IMG/VR virus record: IMGVR_UViG_3300035183_000505
Location: 1-24,489 of that record
DNA length: 24,489 nt
Direction: 5' to 3' (one strand)
From: a virus
Position numbers and translations under genes: made by a program. Within the stretch, counting starts at the first letter, position 1, and the number at the start of each line of letters is the position of its first letter. Shown here piece by piece: positions 1,763-22,593 of this stretch. Below the pieces are notes generated by a model that worked only from the letters and a program-made list of their open reading frames with translations, did no database searches and was not told where the DNA came from.

Positions 1763-2254
1763 ATGGCGACAAAGCCGACAACGAAAAAAGCCGGCGCAAA
1801 GAAGGGCGCCAAAAAGCGGCGCGACTGGAAGCCGCTGTTCCTCGAGTGGTTCGCCAAGACGGGCAACGTCAGCCTGTCGGCCCAAAAGGCGAAGGTGAAT
1901 CGCCAGCACGTGTATACCGCACGCGAGAGCGACGAGGCGTTCGCCACCGCCTGGGACGAAGCGGAAGAGGTGGCCGTCGATGCGCTCGAGGAGGAGGCGC
2001 GCCGCCGTGCGCACGATGGGTGGGACGAGCCCGTATTCTACAAGGGCGAGCAGGCCGGCACGATTCGCAAGTACGACAGCACGCTGTTGATCTTCCTCCT
2101 GAAGGCGCGCCGGCCGCAGACGTATCGCGAGAACACTCGCGTCGAAAACTTCAACTTTGATCCGTCCGAGCTGACCGATGAGCAGCTGGAGCGCATCGCC
2201 GGAGGGGAGCACCCGCTCGTCGTCCTCGCGGCAACGCGCGAGCGCCCTGCTTGA
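1763..2254 (+). CDS. terS: Terminase small subunit
   Basis: A 163-residue protein directly before the large terminase, which is where the DNA-recognition subunit usually lies. The first 20 residues are very Lys-rich. Residues 24-52 form a helix-turn-helix (FLEWFAKTGNVSLSAQKAKV followed by NRQHVY), the usual packaging-site binding domain. Residues 103-122 contain a Y-D-S-T-L-L-I-F-L-L-K-A-R-R-P-x-T-Y-R block that is highly characteristic of small terminase proteins, with a preceding W-x-E-P-V-F-Y-x-G strand. The C-terminal tail (PSELTDEQLERIAGGE) is typical of the part that contacts the large subunit. It should form a ring that binds the packaging site and stimulates the motor. The gene overlaps terL by 77 bases in another frame. 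A weak purine-rich site (GGTGAGGAG) precedes the ATG. Confidence 0.9.
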   Translation: MATKPTTKKAGAKKGAKKRRDWKPLFLEWFAKTGNVSLSAQKAKVNRQHVYTARESDEAFATAWDEAEEVAVDALEEEARRRAHDGWDEPVFYKGEQAGTIRKYDSTLLIFLLKARRPQTYRENTRVENFNFDPSELTDEQLERIAGGEHPLVVLAATRERPA

Positions 2255-3794
2255 GCTGCGGCGCCGGCGCGCGGGTAACCGGTTCGCGAAGTATGCGGAC
2301 CGGCCCGCCGACTACGCAACGGACGTCCTCGGCGTCGCCTGGTGGGGGAAGCAGATTGAGATCGCCGAATCGGTGCGGCGCAACCGACGCACGGTCGTGT
2401 ATGCGGGGCATGGCGTCGGGAAGTCGCATCTCGCCGGCGGCCTGGTGCAATGGCACTTCGACTGCTTCGATCCATCGATTACGCTCACGACGGCGCCCAG
2501 CTGGTCCTCCATCCATGACCTGCTGTGGGGGGAGGTGCGCGCGCAGCGCCCGCCGCATCTCTCGGGGCGCCTGCTCGACATGTACCTGGACGGAGGCCCG
2601 ATGCACTACGCCAAGGGGCACAACGCCGAGTCCGGATCGGGATTCCAGGGCCGCCATGAGGCGCGCGTCCTGATCATGCTGGATGAGGCGCAGGGCGTGC
2701 CGCCGTACATCTGGGAGGCGAGCGAGGCGATGATGAGCGCGCCGGATTGCCGCCTGGTGGCGTTCGGCAACCCGACCGAGACCAGCGGCGACTACTACGA
2801 CATCCGCACCGATCCACGCTGGAACGTGATCCACATTTCCTGCCTCGATCACCCGAACATCGTCGCCGAGCTCCGCGGCGAAAAGGCGCCCTTTCCGAAG
2901 GCGGTGAGCTTGCTGTGGGTGCAGGAGATGCTGGAGAAGCACGCGACGCCGACCGATGTGCGCGACGGCGACGCGTTCGAGTTCCCGCGCGGCTCGGGGC
3001 GCTGGTACCTGCCCGACGACGTCTGCCGGTCGCGTGTCCTCGGCCTGCATCCGAAGCAGGCGTCGCAGGCGGTGTGGTCGGAGGAGTGGCTGTTGCAGGC
3101 GCGCGCGCGTTCCCTGCCGATCGTGCAGGGCGACCCGCTCGAGCTCGGCGTCGACGTGGCGCGATACGGCCTCGACAAGACGACGATCTACGGCCGCCGC
3201 GGCGGCGTGGTCGTCGGCCGCGAGCAGTACGAGAAGCAGGGCACGATGGAGACCGTCGGGCGTGTGCTGCGGTTCATCGACAGCTACATCGGGCCGGGTG
3301 AGGACCCGAAGCAGGTCTCGATCAAGGTGGACGACACCGGCCTCGGCGGCGGCCCCACCGATCGGCTCGAGGAGCTGGAGTACAGCGTCACCGGCATCAA
3401 CTTCGGCGGCGCACCGCTCGACCGCGAGGAGTTCTACAACCGCGGGTCGGAGATGTGGTTCACCGTCGCGTACCGCGCGCGCGAGGGTCGCCTCGATCTC
3501 AGTCGTTTGGACGAGCAGGCGTACAAGCAGCTGAGCGCCGAGCTGCGCGCGCGCCGCTACAAGATCCACTCCGACAAGACGCTACGCGTCGAGAGCAAGG
3601 ACGACCTGAAGAAGCGCATCGGGCGATCGCCGGACGACGCGGACGCCTTGGTGCTCGCGTTCGCGCCTGGCGAGGCGGGGCTGACGTTCGGCAGCGTCGG
3701 CGCCGCGGCATCGCCGGGCGCGGCACCGGCAATCACCAACCCGCAGCACCCGGGGTACCGGGGCGGGCGCGCGCTGCGGATCAGGAGGAGCTGA
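2178..3794 (+). CDS. terL: Terminase large subunit (packaging ATPase and nuclease)
   Basis: This 538-residue protein pumps DNA into the prohead and cuts the concatemer. Walker A is GHGVGKS at residues 77-83; Walker B with the catalytic glutamate is VLIMLDE at 164-170; the coupling motif LVAFGNPT lies at 193-200. The RNase H-like nuclease domain follows, with the acidic residues expected: Asp326 in LGVDVAR, Asp385/386 in IKVDDTG, and Asp486/487/489 in SPDDADALVLAF. Length and domain order are normal for the family. The only usable in-frame start is the ATG at 2178, within terS, so the two genes overlap by 77 bases; the first ~25 residues are Ser-rich and poorly conserved in appearance. The stop shares bases with the next ATG. 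Confidence 0.97.
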   Translation: MSSWSASPEGSTRSSSSRQRASALLELRRRRAGNRFAKYADRPADYATDVLGVAWWGKQIEIAESVRRNRRTVVYAGHGVGKSHLAGGLVQWHFDCFDPSITLTTAPSWSSIHDLLWGEVRAQRPPHLSGRLLDMYLDGGPMHYAKGHNAESGSGFQGRHEARVLIMLDEAQGVPPYIWEASEAMMSAPDCRLVAFGNPTETSGDYYDIRTDPRWNVIHISCLDHPNIVAELRGEKAPFPKAVSLLWVQEMLEKHATPTDVRDGDAFEFPRGSGRWYLPDDVCRSRVLGLHPKQASQAVWSEEWLLQARARSLPIVQGDPLELGVDVARYGLDKTTIYGRRGGVVVGREQYEKQGTMETVGRVLRFIDSYIGPGEDPKQVSIKVDDTGLGGGPTDRLEELEYSVTGINFGGAPLDREEFYNRGSEMWFTVAYRAREGRLDLSRLDEQAYKQLSAELRARRYKIHSDKTLRVESKDDLKKRIGRSPDDADALVLAFAPGEAGLTFGSVGAAASPGAAPAITNPQHPGYRGGRALRIRRS

Positions 3795-4003
3795 TGGGCA
3801 ATCAGTGTGGGCCGAAGCCGCCCCGCATCGAGGACGTGGTTGGCCGTTCTCGAGTCGAAGCGCGGCTCACCGAACTGCATCTGACCGACGATCTTGAAAT
3901 GGCGCGGGCTTACGGAGCCGAGAAGTGCACGATCAAGCACTACGGCGACCCGGCGGGTAGCACTGTCTCCGTCTGCGTCCATATGAGCCGCGGGCGTGCT
4001 TGA
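3794..4003 (+). CDS. Small orphan protein, 69 aa
   Basis: The ATG at 3794 overlaps the terL stop (ATGA) and has a strong ribosome binding site, AGGAGG, at 3783-3788. The product is 69 residues and I do not recognise it. Residues 13-35 are a likely helix (EDVVGRSRVEARLTELHLTD) and the second half contains a strand-rich block with two cysteines (EKCTIKHYG ... VSVCVHM). No signal peptide or membrane segment. The excellent translation signal and tight coupling make it a real gene. Together with the next two genes it forms an accessory insert between terminase and portal, a place where phages often carry non-structural cargo. Confidence 0.75.
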   Translation: MGNQCGPKPPRIEDVVGRSRVEARLTELHLTDDLEMARAYGAEKCTIKHYGDPAGSTVSVCVHMSRGRA

Positions 4004-4715
4004 GCCCGTGCGCACGCTCGTCGCGGTGGTCAGCTGCCACCGCCGAATCCTCCACCGCGTCGCGCAGCGCATGACGTGGGCGCCGCATCTGGGCGCCGAC
4101 GCGGTGTTCTTCGTCGGCCGGCAAGCGAGCCAGCGCGGCGCATTCGAGGTGGAGGCCGGAGACGCGCAGCGCATCCTCGGCGATGACGACGGGGCATCCG
4201 CGGTGCGGTACGACGTCGTCGAGCTGAACGTCGACGACAGCTACGACGGGCTGTCGCAGAAGACGTGGGCGATCGCGCGCTGGGCGCTCGAGCACGGGTA
4301 CGAGGCGGTGTTCAAGGTCAACGACGACGTCGTGATCTTCCCGGCGCGGTTCGGCCTGCCGCCGCGCGACGCCGACTATGCTGGCTGGGTGCAGGACGAC
4401 GGCACGTGGATCCAGGGCCACGCGTACTGGCTCCGGCGGCGCGCGCTCGAGGCGATCGCCGCCGCGCCGATGCCGGCGGTGATCCCCGGCGCCGTCGAGG
4501 ATCGCTGGGTCGGTTGGGCGATGGGGGCCGCCGGGATCCCCGCAGTGTCGGAGCCCCGGATCGGATGCGTGCGCCGGCCGCAGGGCCGTACGGCGTTCGA
4601 TCTGGCTCGCATGCTGCGCGCAACTGAGCCGTTCTACGCGGCAGCGGAGTTCAATCCGGAGGAGATCGTGGCGCTGTACGACGCGGTCTACGGGGGAACG
4701 GTGTGGAGGAGGTGA
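3996..4715 (+). CDS. GT31-like (beta-galactosyltransferase-type) glycosyltransferase
   Basis: A 239-residue protein with the ordered landmarks of family GT31 transferases. An N-terminal strand TLVAVVSCHRR (residues 7-17) starts the nucleotide-sugar fold. DSYDGLSQKT (81-90) matches the D-x-Y-x-N-L-x-x-K-T block. FKVNDDVVIF (106-115) is the DxD-type metal and sugar-nucleotide site. IQGHAYWLRRRALEAI (139-154) matches the acceptor-side G-x-G/Y-V-x-S segment, and EDRWVG (168-173) matches the catalytic E-D-V-Y-x-G. There is no signal peptide or membrane anchor, so it should act in the cytoplasm, transferring a sugar from a nucleotide donor to an unknown acceptor (virion protein, phage DNA or host glycan). 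The GTG at 3996 overlaps the previous stop; a second GTG at 4008 would fit as well. Family call from motifs seen by eye. Confidence 0.8.
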   Translation: MLEPVRTLVAVVSCHRRILHRVAQRMTWAPHLGADAVFFVGRQASQRGAFEVEAGDAQRILGDDDGASAVRYDVVELNVDDSYDGLSQKTWAIARWALEHGYEAVFKVNDDVVIFPARFGLPPRDADYAGWVQDDGTWIQGHAYWLRRRALEAIAAAPMPAVIPGAVEDRWVGWAMGAAGIPAVSEPRIGCVRRPQGRTAFDLARMLRATEPFYAAAEFNPEEIVALYDAVYGGTVWRR

Positions 4716-5138: not shown

Positions 5139-6887
5139 ATGTGGCCCCGAATCCAACGCTGGCTAGCGGACCGGACGCTGCGGCGGGCGGCCCGCGTAGT
5201 CGATCCGGAGCAGCTCCGGCGCGCGTTCGCGCAGGCTTCTGAGCAGGGACGCCTCGCCTACCAAGGCGCACTGAACCAACACGCCGTTGCCACTGGCGGC
5301 TCGTTCGTCCCGAAGTGGATGGACGCCGCGGCGCAGCTGCAGGCGGGAATCGACAGCCCAGACCGCCGGTCGATCGAATGGCCCACGTACGGGTCGCTCG
5401 GCCGCGGCCGCTACCCCGGTCTGACGAACCTCCCGAAGCCGACGCCGCCGCAGCTGCGCCGCTTCAGCGAGACGCCGCCGGCGCGGTTCTGCATCGACAA
5501 GATCAAGGGCGCGGTGACGCGCCTCGAGTTTCGGGTCAAGCCGACGAGCAAGCAGTTCCTCGACCGCAACGGGAACCGGCTCCGGCAGCTGCCGCTGGAC
5601 ATGCAGCAGCGCATCGACGCCGCCGAGCGCGCGTTCGCGTGTCCCGATCCGAAGACCGGGATGTTCTGGGACGTGTTCCTCGAGGAAGTCATCGAGGACA
5701 TCCTCGTCGGCGGGTTTGGCTCGGTTGAGACGCACCCGTGGCTGAACAACCCGCTGCAGCCGTTCGTGCTCTACCCGATCCAGGGCGAGTCGATCTGCAT
5801 CAACCTTGACTGGCTCGCCGATGACGCCGCCGAGGAGCATCGCCGGTACCGGTACGTGCAGACGCCGTACGCCGGCGGCAGCGCTGGCGCCGCCGTGCCG
5901 TACATCCTGTTCCGCGACCAGGAGCTGATGTACCTGCGCGAGGATCCGCGCACGAGCACGCCGTTCGGCCTCGGCCGGTGCGAGGTGGCGTACGAAATGA
6001 TCAGCGCGTGGCTCGGGCACATGGACGCGCGCGAGCGGAAGGAATCGAACGAAATCCCCGAGTACCTGATCCATCTGGGCGAGGACGCGGGCTCGAAAGT
6101 CGACGGCTTCCGGTTCTACTGGCGGCACAACATCGAGGGGAACGGGGAAACGCCGATCATCGGCGGATCGAAGGAGCCGAAGGTGCTGATGCTGCGCGGC
6201 CACCAGGTGGGCGAGCAGCTGAACGCCTGGCCCGACATGGTGCTGCGCATCACCGCGAAGGCGTTCCACCTTTCGTCGCAGACCTTCAACGAGCAGAACA
6301 CCAACCGCTCGACGGCCGAGGTGCTGACCGGCGAAGAGTTCGCCGACGCGGTGTTGCCGCTCGTCCGGCGGCTCGAGGGCCAATTCACGCAGCACATCCT
6401 CCGCCGGATGCTCGGCTGGCACGACCTGCGGTGCAGCTTCGTCATCACGCAGGGTGACCGTGAGAAAGAGGTGGCGGTCGCGCGCGAGCTCGCCGATGGC
6501 GACCTGGCCGACATGAACGAGGCGCGCGAGCACGCGGGCCTGGAGCCGTGGCCGGAGAACGACCCGCGAGGCCGCATGACGCTGACCGAGTATCGCGCCT
6601 GGGCGAACGCCCGCCATCAGCCGGAGGACCCCTTCGGCATGGCGCCATCGAAGCGCCTGGGCATGGAGGACGAACCGCCGCTGCCGGATGCGCCCGCGGC
6701 GGTGCCCGGATTCGAGCCGGGGAGCGCCGCAGCGGTGTCCGCCGGCGACCGGGCGCTGGCTGCCTTCGCCGAGCAGGTGCGCGCCGAGCTCGCCGGCCGC
6801 CCGCGTGATGGTCGCTACGTCTCGATGATCCTACGCGACGCGGATCTCGCAGGGCGGGTCCGCAAAGACCTGGCCGCGTTGCACTGA
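5139..6887 (+). CDS. Portal protein
   Basis: A 582-residue protein that should form the dodecameric DNA entry channel at one vertex of the head and dock the terminase. Recognisable blocks are the DVFLEEVIEDILVGGFGSVE segment (residues 178-197), typical of the clip/wing core of HK97- and SPP1-type portals, and TPFGLGRCEVAYEMISAWL (274-292), followed by a helix with E-R-K-E-S-N-E-I-P-E-Y-L-I. The stretch FHLSSQTFNEQNTNRSTAEV and the later helix DMNEAREHAGLEPWPEND are also standard for portals. The C-terminal 110 residues are Pro/Ala-rich and then helical, a likely barrel or flexible tail. The ATG at 5139 has no clear ribosome binding site; alternatives nearby are out of frame. It follows a 172-base non-coding stretch, so it may have its own signals. 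Confidence 0.92.
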   Translation: MWPRIQRWLADRTLRRAARVVDPEQLRRAFAQASEQGRLAYQGALNQHAVATGGSFVPKWMDAAAQLQAGIDSPDRRSIEWPTYGSLGRGRYPGLTNLPKPTPPQLRRFSETPPARFCIDKIKGAVTRLEFRVKPTSKQFLDRNGNRLRQLPLDMQQRIDAAERAFACPDPKTGMFWDVFLEEVIEDILVGGFGSVETHPWLNNPLQPFVLYPIQGESICINLDWLADDAAEEHRRYRYVQTPYAGGSAGAAVPYILFRDQELMYLREDPRTSTPFGLGRCEVAYEMISAWLGHMDARERKESNEIPEYLIHLGEDAGSKVDGFRFYWRHNIEGNGETPIIGGSKEPKVLMLRGHQVGEQLNAWPDMVLRITAKAFHLSSQTFNEQNTNRSTAEVLTGEEFADAVLPLVRRLEGQFTQHILRRMLGWHDLRCSFVITQGDREKEVAVARELADGDLADMNEAREHAGLEPWPENDPRGRMTLTEYRAWANARHQPEDPFGMAPSKRLGMEDEPPLPDAPAAVPGFEPGSAAAVSAGDRALAAFAEQVRAELAGRPRDGRYVSMILRDADLAGRVRKDLAALH

Positions 6888-6895
6888 CGGGCGCC

Positions 6896-8020
6896 ATGAT
6901 CGGCGACCCGCTCTACGCGGCGCTGGACCGAACGGCCGTGCCGGTCGGTGCCACCGCCGAGCAATGGGACCGGTACCTGCGAATCCTCGCAGCGGCAAAG
7001 CCGACGCTCTGCGTCGACTTCGATGGCACGATGACGCTCGCCGGGCCGTACGAGCCGGGCGTGCCGTCGATCGGCGTACAGCCGGGCACGCGGCGCGCGC
7101 TCGCCGAGTGGGTCGCCGAGGGCTATCGCATCGTCGTCCTGACGGCGCGGAACACGGCCGACGTCTGGCCCTGGCTCGCCGGCCACGGGCTGACGCAGTT
7201 CGTCGACGAGGTCACCAACACCAAGCCGCCCGCGGTTGCGTACATCGACGACCGCGCGGTGTCGTTCGGTGGGGACTGGGATGCGGTGCGGGCGAAGGTG
7301 CGGACGCTGGCTGATCGGCCGGCGGCCCCACCGAGCGACGACGTTTCACGTGAAACCGATCTGAGCGGCCACGGGCGCGTTGCCTGCTCGTGCGGCGCGA
7401 CGATCCGGAACTGCCGCTGCCCGAGCGAGGCGCATCCCGGGCTCGTCGAGACGATCGAGCGCGGGTGCGCCGCGTGCCTTGCTGCTGCCGCCGAGCCGAC
7501 GCCTCACGCCGTTGCCCACGTCCGCGTGCACGGCCTGGACGTCGCGATCGAGAACGAGCCCGGATCGATCCGCCGCTCGAAGCACACGAAGCCGGACGGC
7601 TCTCCCGAGTGGGAGACGCGCATGGCGTACCGGTACGGCGAGATCGGCCACACCGAAGGCGCCGACGGCGACGCCATCGACGTGTTCCTGACCCCCGACC
7701 CCGAGGGCAGCGACCGCGTCTTCGTCATCAACCAGATCGACCCGGCGACCCGCCGGTTCGATGAGCACAAGTGTGTTCTCGGCGCTCGATCACTCGACGA
7801 AGCGCGCGCGGTCTACCTCGCGAACTACGACGCGACGGGGCCACAGCGCATCGGCTCGATCCGCGAGATGCCGCTCGACGAGTTCAAGCGGTGGGCGTTC
7901 GGCGGGCCGCGGCGCATCGAGGCGGCGAGCTATTTCGAGACTTGCGAGCACGCCCCTGCAGGCGGCGATGGTCATCCCGGCGCGATCCCCGACAGTGACC
8001 GCGTCCCCGATCGCGAGTAA
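6896..8020 (+). CDS. HAD-like phosphatase fused to an inorganic-pyrophosphatase-like domain
   Basis: A 374-residue multidomain protein. Residues 36-138 are a HAD-type domain: motif I LCVDFDGT (38-45), motif II VLTAR (81-85), a conserved lysine at 110 and motif IV YIDD (116-119), so phosphomonoesterase activity is plausible. A linker (139-158) follows, then a compact Cys cluster CSCGATIRNCRC (164-175) with a later CxxC (191/194), a possible zinc knuckle. Residues 205-335 resemble the pyrophosphatase-like domain described in phage polyvalent proteins: an ENEPGSIRRS start, DGDAIDVF (257-264) close to the soluble pyrophosphatase signature D-G-D-P-x-D-x with Ala for Pro, FDEHKCVLG (288-296) and a C-terminal PLDEFKRW. 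It lies between portal and protease. The linker DNA holds a perfect parS-like palindrome. Activity and substrate are unproven. Confidence 0.8.
   Translation: MIGDPLYAALDRTAVPVGATAEQWDRYLRILAAAKPTLCVDFDGTMTLAGPYEPGVPSIGVQPGTRRALAEWVAEGYRIVVLTARNTADVWPWLAGHGLTQFVDEVTNTKPPAVAYIDDRAVSFGGDWDAVRAKVRTLADRPAAPPSDDVSRETDLSGHGRVACSCGATIRNCRCPSEAHPGLVETIERGCAACLAAAAEPTPHAVAHVRVHGLDVAIENEPGSIRRSKHTKPDGSPEWETRMAYRYGEIGHTEGADGDAIDVFLTPDPEGSDRVFVINQIDPATRRFDEHKCVLGARSLDEARAVYLANYDATGPQRIGSIREMPLDEFKRWAFGGPRRIEAASYFETCEHAPAGGDGHPGAIPDSDRVPDRE
7343..7356. promoter_or_regulatory. parS-like palindrome (ParB-binding core)
   Basis: The sequence GTTTCACGTGAAAC is a perfect 14-bp palindrome identical to the inner 14 bases of the bacterial chromosomal parS consensus (outer bases T and A are here C and C). 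It is AT-rich in a high-G+C gene and encodes V-S-R-E-T at residues 150-154, in the linker between two domains, where it would not disturb folding. I find no second exact copy in the window. ParB binding is inferred. Confidence 0.7.
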
Positions 8021-18867: not shown

Positions 18868-21800
18868 GTGGCGGGTGAGGAGCAACTCGGGAAATACCAG
18901 GTCGGCGTCGCGCTCGACTTGCGCGACCTGGTCGGCCGCGTCGGCACGGTCGAGGGCATCCTCGGCCGGCTCGAAAAGGGCATCGACTCACTCAACGAGA
19001 AGGGCGAGAAGGCCGGCAGCGGCTGGCTCAAGGGCTTCGCGCAGATCGAGATCGCGGAGAAGGTCCTTCACGCCGTCCATGCCGCGCTCGACGTCATCCC
19101 CGAGCTCGCCCACAAGGGCCTGGAGGCGTTCGAGGCCACGGTCGGCGCTGCGGGCCGGTACGCCGACCAGCTCGAGCTGCAGGCTGCGCTGGTCGGCACG
19201 AACATCCGCGAAACGCAGGCGCTGTCCACCGGGCTGGAAGCCGTCGGCGGCAGCGGCGATGCGGCGACGGGCGTCCTGCTGCGCGTGGGGCGCGCGGTGG
19301 CGATCGCGGCCGGGGGCGGCGGGGGCATGCGCATTCCGCCGGCGCAGGCCTTCAAGGAGCTCGGCGTTGAGTTGACGGCAGCGGGGGGGCGCGGCCGCCC
19401 GTTCGCCGAGGTGATGGACGACATCAGCCGGAAGTTCGCCGAGATGCCCGACGGTCCGCGGCGCACGGCGCTCGCCATCGCGATCTTCGGCGGCGAAGCG
19501 ACCCGGATGCTGAAGCTGTTTGCCGACCTCTCCAGTGAGGGCAAGACCTGGCGGCAGAACATCGACGAGTTGGGCCTCACGATCGACGAGCGGCTCCTCG
19601 AGGCCGCGGCGAAGCTCGACAACCAGCTGGACATCTTGAGGGCGCAAGGGGCGGCGACGTTCCGCCTGATTGGCGCGGAGGCGGCGCCGGCGTTCATGCC
19701 GTTGGTGAAGGAACTGATCGAGGGCCGACGCCAGATCATCGAGTGGGTCAAGGAGCACAAGGAGGGCATTCAGGACGTCGCGGCGGTGATTGCCACGAAG
19801 TGCGAGCAGATCGTCAAGCAGATCGAGCAGGTGGTCGCCGCCTTCCGTGAGAGTGGGCCCGAGCTCGAGGACGTGATCGTCGACGCCTTCGATCTGATGA
19901 CGGTGGCGGTGACGAAGTTTGTAAAGTGGACCGGCTACGCCGTGCAGGGGATGGCCGGGCTCGCCGCGGCGAAGGACAAGATCTTCGGCGGTGGGCAAAT
20001 CGGGCAGGGCGCGATCGACCTCGACAACTATGCCCTGGGGCTGATCAAGGCCGCGCAGGCAGCCGAGCAGCAGCACGAAGAAGACGTCAAGCAGACCGCG
20101 GCGTTCCGCGCCAAGCGCGATCAGCTCCGCGCCACGCGCGAGGAGATCGAATCCCTCGCGGCCGCCCAGCGCGAGCTGCCCCGCGACGTCCAGGACAACA
20201 TGGGCCTCGACGACCGGTTGCAGGCCGCCCTGGGTCGCGCGCGCCAGCAGCTCGATGCGCTCGGCGACGAGTACAACAAGGTCAACGAGGCGGACCGAAA
20301 GTTCTGGGAGGATATGGGGCTCCACGAGCGGACGCTTCCACTTGAGAAGCCGACGCCGGACGCCACGCAACCGCCCATCCCCAAGTTCAACGCGCAGGAA
20401 GTCGAGCAGGCGACCAACGCCATCCAGAAGGCCATCGATGCCGCCGACCAGGAGCGCGCCGCCATTCTCGGCGGCACTCAGGCGAAGATCGCCGCGATCG
20501 TTGCGAGCCGCGAATACGCGGCGGCCAGCGACGCGGAGCGCACGGCGCTGCAGCAAAAGCTGACCGATCTCGACGCGCTGCAGCGGGCGCTCCAGCACGC
20601 CACCGACCAGCTCCAAGACTTCCAGTCTCAGGAGAAGCAGGGCATCGCCAACCGCGACCGGTCTCTGGCGCTGCAAAAGGAAGCCATCCAGGTCGCGCTC
20701 GCTGCGGCGAAGGCCCACCACGACGATCAGGCCATCCTGACGCAGACGGCGGCGCTGTCGGCGGTCGAGGCGCAGCAGCGCATCGCGACCGAACAGGACG
20801 CGGTGGAGCGGATCAAGGCTTCGTTGGTCTCCCTGGCTGATGCGCGTTCCGACGCCGCGCGGGTCACGGTGCAGGCGGCGATCGCCAATGGCCGCGAGCT
20901 CGCCGGCGTCGGCGAGGAGCAGGTCGCCAATCTGCGCACCCAGCTCCAAGACGAGCTCGCGCTCCGCGAGAGCCAGCTGGCGCAGGTGCGCGCCATCGCG
21001 CAGGCACAGGCCGCGGCGGCACAGGAAGCCGCGCAGCAGGAAGTCGAGCGGCTCCGGGGCGCCCTGCTGGACCTGAAGGCGGTGAGCAGCTCCGTTCTCG
21101 ACGACATGTTTGAGGGGGGCATCCTCGGCACGCAGAAGATGTCGAAGGCGTGGGAGAGCATGTGGCTCTCGATGGGCCGCACGGGCCTGAAGACGCTGAA
21201 GGACATGGTGCTCAACAAGGTGACCGCCTTCGATGAGCCGATGGTCCTGAACTTCACCGAGCTGCCCGGGAAGCTCGCCTCCGCGTTCAGCCCGGTAAAG
21301 GGGCTGATCAGCCGCATCCTCGGCGACACGGCAAAGGATGAGGTGCCCGTGGGCACCGCCGGGGTGCTGGCGCCCGAACCGCCAACGCCGGGCGGCGCCG
21401 ATCTCGAGGGCAGCGTGCGTCGAACGCTCGGCCAGCCGGAGCCCGCCGAGGTGCCCTACGCACCGCCAGAGACGGAGGCCGCCGAGAGCGCGGCTGCGGC
21501 GCCCGGGCTCTTCCGCCGACTGTTCGGTGGACTGTTCGGAGGCGGTCCGCCGGCAACAGAGCCGACGGCGGGCGCCCCCGGTGCGACTGCGCCCGGGGCT
21601 GTCGCGTCCATGAACATCTCGGCCGGAACGGTCTTCCTCACCGGCGCGATCGGTGGCTCCGGCGTGCCTGCGCCACCGGGTGCCGCGCCGCCGGTGGGGC
21701 CGGAGGCCGGCGCGCCGCCGCCACCAGGAGCGGCGGCGATCCCAGCGCAGCCGGCGCCGGCGAAGCCCGCGGCCCCCAGCGGGATCGAAAACGAGGGCCC

Positions 21801-22593
21801 CACGGGGATCCAGTCAGCGATCTCCGGCCTTGGCAACATCATGCGCGGCGTCGGCTCGCTCCTGATGAAGCCGCTCGAGTTGGTGCCCAATCTGTTGCAA
21901 AAGGGGTTCGGCGATGCCGTGCACACCATCGCGAGCGGGACGAAAGAGAGCGGGACGCAGATCGCGAAGGGCGCCGCGCAGACCGTCGGCGGCGTCGCGA
22001 AGGCGACGGGCGAGCTGGGGAGCTTCCTCGGCGGCACGCTGCAGACGATCGGCAACCTGATCGGAGGCGGCGCCGGTAAGATCGTTTCCATCATCGGTAT
22101 CGTCATCTCGCTGCTGTCCAGCATCCTGGTCGGCATCAGCGCGTCGGTGAGTATCTTCGGCACCGGCAAGGGCGCCAGCGGCGGCTACTTCACCCTGAGC
22201 GGCGGCTTCGAGCGGCCGGCCGGCAAGAGTGCCGATCGGGGCACCGACGGCGCGATCCCGTTCTGGACGCACCCCGGCGAGGGGCTCATCAACCCCGAGG
22301 CGACGCGCAAGCTCGGCGGCCGCGATGCCATCATGGACCTGAACGCCGGGCACATCCCGCGGTCGATCTTCGACCGTGTCGCCGCGTCGCTGCCGGCCGA
22401 TGGCCGGATCCGCGTGGCGGTGCCGGCCGTCCCCAGGCTCGGGAACGTCACCTCGAGCGTCATCGACAGCAGTGACCACCGCTCGTTCACCATCCATCCG
22501 GGCGCCATCGTCGTGCAGGCCGAGCGCGGGGTCGACGTCGACGCGATCGGCGACGCCGTGATGCGCAAAGTCGTGACGCACTTCGCGCGATGA
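18868..22593 (+). CDS. Tape measure protein
   Basis: The largest gene, 1241 residues from GTG at 18868. It should set the tail length and pass through the tube with DNA. Features in order: an N-terminal helical region (1-110) with ATVGAAGRYADQLELQAA near 90-107; Gly-rich loop (151-155); a helical core (155-330); a coiled coil of Ala/Gln/Glu (400-740) with many short repeats; a flexible Pro/Ala/Gly part (about 826-975) containing GLFRRLFGGLFGGG at 880-893; a hydrophobic segment IIGIVISLLSSILVGI at about 1073-1088; and the typical C-terminal block GTDGAIPFWTHPGEGLINPEA (about 1123-1142) followed by G-x-R-D-A-I-M-D-L-N. This PGE block is common near the end of tape measures. A 20-codon ATG frame at 18816-18878 precedes and overlaps the start; it is probably not a gene. 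Confidence 0.95.
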   Translation: MAGEEQLGKYQVGVALDLRDLVGRVGTVEGILGRLEKGIDSLNEKGEKAGSGWLKGFAQIEIAEKVLHAVHAALDVIPELAHKGLEAFEATVGAAGRYADQLELQAALVGTNIRETQALSTGLEAVGGSGDAATGVLLRVGRAVAIAAGGGGGMRIPPAQAFKELGVELTAAGGRGRPFAEVMDDISRKFAEMPDGPRRTALAIAIFGGEATRMLKLFADLSSEGKTWRQNIDELGLTIDERLLEAAAKLDNQLDILRAQGAATFRLIGAEAAPAFMPLVKELIEGRRQIIEWVKEHKEGIQDVAAVIATKCEQIVKQIEQVVAAFRESGPELEDVIVDAFDLMTVAVTKFVKWTGYAVQGMAGLAAAKDKIFGGGQIGQGAIDLDNYALGLIKAAQAAEQQHEEDVKQTAAFRAKRDQLRATREEIESLAAAQRELPRDVQDNMGLDDRLQAALGRARQQLDALGDEYNKVNEADRKFWEDMGLHERTLPLEKPTPDATQPPIPKFNAQEVEQATNAIQKAIDAADQERAAILGGTQAKIAAIVASREYAAASDAERTALQQKLTDLDALQRALQHATDQLQDFQSQEKQGIANRDRSLALQKEAIQVALAAAKAHHDDQAILTQTAALSAVEAQQRIATEQDAVERIKASLVSLADARSDAARVTVQAAIANGRELAGVGEEQVANLRTQLQDELALRESQLAQVRAIAQAQAAAAQEAAQQEVERLRGALLDLKAVSSSVLDDMFEGGILGTQKMSKAWESMWLSMGRTGLKTLKDMVLNKVTAFDEPMVLNFTELPGKLASAFSPVKGLISRILGDTAKDEVPVGTAGVLAPEPPTPGGADLEGSVRRTLGQPEPAEVPYAPPETEAAESAAAAPGLFRRLFGGLFGGGPPATEPTAGAPGATAPGAVASMNISAGTVFLTGAIGGSGVPAPPGAAPPVGPEAGAPPPPGAAAIPAQPAPAKPAAPSGIENEGPTGIQSAISGLGNIMRGVGSLLMKPLELVPNLLQKGFGDAVHTIASGTKESGTQIAKGAAQTVGGVAKATGELGSFLGGTLQTIGNLIGGGAGKIVSIIGIVISLLSSILVGISASVSIFGTGKGASGGYFTLSGGFERPAGKSADRGTDGAIPFWTHPGEGLINPEATRKLGGRDAIMDLNAGHIPRSIFDRVAASLPADGRIRVAVPAVPRLGNVTSSVIDSSDHRSFTIHPGAIVVQAERGVDVDAIGDAVMRKVVTHFAR

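Follow-up and report, generated by a model that had tools for sequence, protein, structure and literature searches.

The question raised by this locus is whether a perfect copy of a chromosomal parS core within a phage gene is a chance match or a working site and, if the latter, which ParB it serves. parS is a short DNA tag used in bacterial chromosome segregation, and ParB is its binding protein. The window analyzed here (the whole stretch of 24,489 nucleotides) has a G+C content of 69.9%, which rises to 88% at third codon positions, and carries the palindromic 14-bp chromosomal-type core GTTTCACGTGAAAC with 0 mismatches, as the first-pass annotation had claimed. The expected count of this 14-mer in the window is 0.4 to 1.5 × 10^-5 (Markov orders 0 to 4), matching the order of 1 in 100,000 put forward earlier for ∼68% G+C. 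A search for further copies, proposed at the same time, retrieved no second match to GTTTCACGTGAAAC at up to 3 mismatches elsewhere in the 24,489-base record; the window thus holds a single site and not the repeat array of a phage-type parS. The site is flanked by C..C, whereas the 16-bp consensus TGTTTCACGTGAAACA has T..A as its outer pair. It is read in the frame GTT TCA CGT GAA AC(C), encoding V-S-R-E-T (residues 150 to 154), and lies, as originally described, between two domains, one HAD-like (residues ∼35 to 131) and one InPase (residues 205 to 333) (Table 1). GTT, TCA, CGT, and GAA are four rare codons with a joint synonymous probability of 2.2 × 10^-5 given V-S-R-E and the codon usage of the window, where the sole other VSRE is spelled GTG AGC CGC GAG.

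Table 1. Coordinates of the parS core, its host gene, and neighboring genes in the window
Feature	Position	Strand	Evidence
parS core GTTTCACGTGAAAC, flanks C..C	7343..7356	.	exact match and viral enrichment
374-aa HAD-like/InPase fusion gene; site at V150-S-R-E-T154 in linker	6896..8020	+	ORF and domain matches
HAD-like domain, residues ∼35-131	6998..7288	+	phrog_1238, E = 1.7e-12; PF12710 below its cut-off
InPase domain, residues 205-333	7508..7894	+	PF18823, E = 3.4e-38
Portal protein gene, directly upstream of fusion gene	5139..6887	+	PF04860, phrog_2662
Terminase large subunit gene, upstream	2178..3794	+	phrog_2, E = 5.5e-25
Tape measure protein gene, downstream	18868..22593	+	phrog_8462, phrog_28

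The phage itself has no visible close kin. No near relatives were recovered from the viral contigs for the fusion protein, TerL, or portal, nor from the genome contigs for the portal, and a prophage search with the portal across four phyla (347 Streptomyces-phylum, 237 Myxococcota, 399 Azospirillum-phylum, and 150 Gemmatimonadota genomes; >1,100 in total) returned two trivial matches only. The tail protein of Leptospira phage LE1 aligned to 84% of the fusion protein, and the 14-mer did not occur within the 12.9 kb of LE1 examined. The homologue comparison suggested in the first-pass annotation for the fusion gene was accordingly made on other phage genes that bear parS. The first-pass annotation had also suggested looking for a phage ParB; no match to the cognate ParB family (PF02195, ParB_N) was found in the 24.5-kb record, which is a fragment. 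Two further features of the region are a cysteine-rich CSC..CRC..CAAC stretch between the HAD-like and InPase domains (window positions 7388 to 7483, residues ∼165 to 196), which resembles a small zinc-binding ribbon, and a Galactosyl_T match (PF01762) in the ORF at 3996 to 4715, an unusual place for a glycosyltransferase, between the terminase and portal genes.

Counts across viral contigs revealed that the window site belongs to a large set. The window 16-mer CGTTTCACGTGAAACC (the core plus C..C) was present in at least 119 viral contigs, and clustering by flanking DNA resolved at least 91 unrelated clusters among the C..C-flanked viral sites. As a control, we counted CGTTCTACGTAGAACC, a palindrome matched in composition and flanks, in the whole viral collection, where it occurred in 25 contigs and 4 unrelated clusters; the resulting enrichment factor of parS over the control is approximate, since the control is read in frame with rarer codons (CTA, AGA). 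Among the first 120 viral 14-mers, ∼70 were the full T..A 16-mer, against an expectation of 1 in 16. Among 21 one-pair palindromic neighbors of the core, only GTTCCACGTGGAAC, a known Pseudomonas parS core (PMC4368675), was present in 3.4 Mb of viral loci, which had largely been picked for parS. Viral sites within ORFs fell in the VSRET frame in 140 cases versus 51 in the FHVK frame, and many sites were intergenic or in a frame other than VSRET. The site-bearing genes encode terminases of several families, portals, head protease/major head protein, scaffold, head-tail adaptor, and primase, and terminases of a single family were found in no fewer than 26 of the 50 carriers. Clustering of phage parS near the terminase was considered and dropped (10 of the 19 longer records had the site no more than 5 kb away versus 6.8 expected; P = 0.08, not significant). 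At the control palindrome sites (L287 to L311), GTTCTACGTAGAAC recurred in 21 related high-GC contigs, nearly always in intergenic positions, and it probably represents some other conserved palindrome with a regulatory role.

An assessment that does not depend on the site itself came from a scaffold/head-assembly family of marine podoviruses, whose members were fetched by protein similarity with parS ignored (78 further contigs, 780 kb). GTTTCACGTGAAAC topped all palindromic 14-mers in these 780 kb, with 10 contigs as opposed to 4 for the runner-up, and at up to 1 mismatch parS was found at 11 loci versus a mean of 0.05 for permuted controls. All 10 scaffold-family sites lie within the scaffold gene itself, and no other parS copies were found in the eight whole records of the family that could be searched. 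On the scaffold tree, the carriers split into at least four groups; the site sits in the N-terminal linker in three of these and in a C-terminal linker in one. Non-carrier homologues have unrelated residues at the site columns. Wherever VSRET occurs in the 780 kb, the exact 14-mer encodes it, although each such codon choice has an expected probability of 0.019. Since VSRET never occurs in other codons and non-carriers display unrelated residues, it is the DNA rather than the peptide that has been kept in this family; against this, the codon-conservation signal within clades is modest. Near-parS sequences were noted in two relatives, TGTTTCAAATGAAACA at L315:20010 (Pelagibacter phage EXVC031P Hodr) and TGTTTCACATGAAACA at L318:1542, both at the N-terminal position occupied by the perfect site in other members of the family; they may have decayed, or they may be adapted to a different ParB.

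Other phage genes display similar mobility of the site. Two TerL homologues (L004 and L161), 38% identical to each other, have it at residue 43 and residue 328, respectively, and in a pair of proline-rich proteins that are 56% identical the flanks differ while the 14-mer is retained; both pairs were found via the site and hence illustrate this behavior rather than test it. The nearest homologues of a parS-bearing portal (∼70% identical) are devoid of the site, which implies that sites are gained and lost and are dispensable in some lineages. A GroES-like phage protein bears parS in its N-terminal linker in seven loci (L178, L184, L192, L204, L206, L238, and L282). In phage DSL-LC05, the GroES gene directly precedes a portal gene whose relatives bear parS at the C terminus.

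The viral sites are typically solitary. Exactly one copy was found in 48 of the 49 carriers other than the window. Further parS sites nearby were recorded for 2 of 119 viral C..C contigs among the matches listed, versus 66 of 118 cellular loci with a C..C site, where a further parS lies within 8 kb. This solitary arrangement, together with the location in genes of the terminase, portal, and head families, led us to reject the idea that most viral sites come from origin fragments of chromosomes that had been misbinned. As many as five parS copies were seen in certain viral contigs (L195, a 44-kb record, and L017, L044, and L116), and some of these may be pieces of chromosomes or plasmids. ParB_N was above the cut-off in 1 of 50 carriers, window included, with weak matches in three more. 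The C..C flanks themselves occur throughout high-GC bacteria, in Actinomycetota above all, often with extra parS within 8 kb, and Pseudomonas aeruginosa parS1 ends in C (PMC4368675). Because C..C sites are common in high-GC bacteria, often among multiple parS, the missing T..A is not a strong argument against function, and the outer T..A is probably not strictly required for parS.

At the level of sequence, the viral sites as a class are therefore exact, more frequent than expected by chance, solitary, nearly always unaccompanied by ParB, and repeatedly gained in unrelated genes, and they bear the marks of selection on the DNA. For the window palindrome, we favor a functional orphan host-type parS kept by DNA-level selection in a tolerant protein linker, with a rough probability of 0.75. 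A contrary view is coincidence, with a 14-mer match that caught the eye given the number of windows and motifs read. The viral collection is indeed big enough for such matches, as the 25 contigs with a matched 16-mer palindrome illustrate, and the window flanks differ from the preferred T..A. Yet the C..C-flanked sites represent at least 91 unrelated occurrences versus 4 for the control, rare codons extend across the entire window site, and the scaffold-family survey recovered the same 14-mer with no regard to parS, all of which renders coincidence improbable. The reading as a real parS is instead well supported by the viral enrichment over the control, the repeated gain in homologues sampled without bias, and the indications of DNA-level selection. 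Selection for the peptide VSRET, e.g., because virion proteins use it for processing or binding, would account for the preference of in-ORF sites for the VSRET over the FHVK frame, but is hardly credible given that each VSRET in the unbiased contigs is the exact 14-mer, that homologues have the motif at either terminus or lack it, and that many sites are intergenic or in another frame.

If the palindrome is a real parS, the next questions are whose ParB would bind it and with what outcome. A phage-encoded ParB, for which the site would serve as the phage's own centromere as in the phage-plasmids P1 and RedRock, might be encoded elsewhere in this phage, as the window record is a fragment, and two carriers (L222 and L228) do have the parS core within a ParB-like partition protein (phrog_620), at codons 61 to 65 in the N terminus of a 393-aa ORF. 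However, ParB_N had no match in the window and exceeded its cut-off in a single carrier, and the sequence is of the universal chromosomal type with no private repeat array, which makes a dedicated phage ParB quite unlikely. Since the window and almost all carriers encode no ParB, recruitment of host ParB to the phage DNA is the simplest consequence and the probable one. The main alternative consequence of such recruitment, compatible with the same parS reading, is a decoy, in which copies of the site, amplified as the phage genome replicates, would titrate ParB off the host origin and stall segregation and the cell cycle. Solitary sites in tested scaffold-family carriers that have neither ParB nor integrase, and that may be non-integrating phages, would suit this idea, but a titration device is expected to be multi-copy and nearly all carriers have one copy; we regard the decoy as a minority option, though a more plausible one than either coincidence or a phage ParB.

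How a single orphan site could act can be outlined from chromosomal systems. Acting as a CTP-dependent clamp, host ParB would load at the site and spread for kilobases along the phage DNA, so that one site would be enough and host ParB would coat most of a phage genome that carries it. In Corynebacterium glutamicum, ParB recruited by a single parS extends as far as 16 kb to each side, and an ectopic single parS recruits both ParB and SMC (PMC7083940). In P. aeruginosa, one of four oriC-proximal parS sites suffices for segregation (PMC4368675). With less certainty, the loaded ParB might attract host ParA and/or SMC, so that the phage genome inside the cell is positioned, partitioned, or condensed; we give this tentative proposal slightly less than even odds. 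The first-pass annotation had suggested that the site could help a prophage to fit into the ori region. This idea found no support in the integrase content of records that may all be fragments: none was found in the window, and a tyrosine integrase was present in 7 to 8 of 50 carriers. In the scaffold family, a single record out of 38 had an integrase, and no tested parS carrier did, numbers too few for a conclusion on lifestyle. A role in the extrachromosomal state is thus slightly more likely than one in the integrated prophage, given the single copy per genome and the few integrases in records that are fragments.

Phage partition systems have so far been known in the form of complete cassettes that bring their own proteins. 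We found no description of a solitary host-type parS without ParB in phage structural genes in the open-access papers that constituted our search. From the sequence comparisons, it appears rather more probable than the contrary that capture of the host centromere is a widespread convergent phage strategy, in which phages from numerous lineages evolve one exact host-type parS in tolerant linkers with no ParB of their own, and that the captured site commandeers host ParB/ParA/SMC for intracellular DNA, acts as a decoy, or marks the DNA as self. If this is true, 14 base pairs would suffice for many phages to tap the chromosome segregation and condensin machinery of the host, which would give a directly testable entry into how phage DNA within the cell is positioned, condensed, or passed on. 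As the site must match a host ParB, it might also help to narrow the possible hosts of uncultivated phages.

The window site has the exact 14-bp core of chromosomal parS of the Bacillus subtilis, Corynebacterium, and Streptomyces type, but unlike these it is single, located on a phage and in a coding linker, and accompanied by neither ParA/ParB nor the outer T..A. Extrachromosomal prophages such as those of the phage-plasmids P1 and RedRock have a ParABS system of their own. Mycobacteriophage RedRock encodes its own ParA/ParB and has two parS loci, each with eight 8-bp direct repeats (PMC7157519). The window shares with the ParABS systems of P1 and RedRock a centromere-like site on phage DNA; in contrast to RedRock, it has one host-type palindrome, and a ParB was not found in the 24.5-kb fragment. 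Staphylococcus epidermidis phages of the Lacachita genus encode ParB without ParA (PMC10286716). They resemble the window phage in having a partial ParABS, and their arrangement is the reverse of that described here, since they have the ParB protein whereas the window has the site without the protein.
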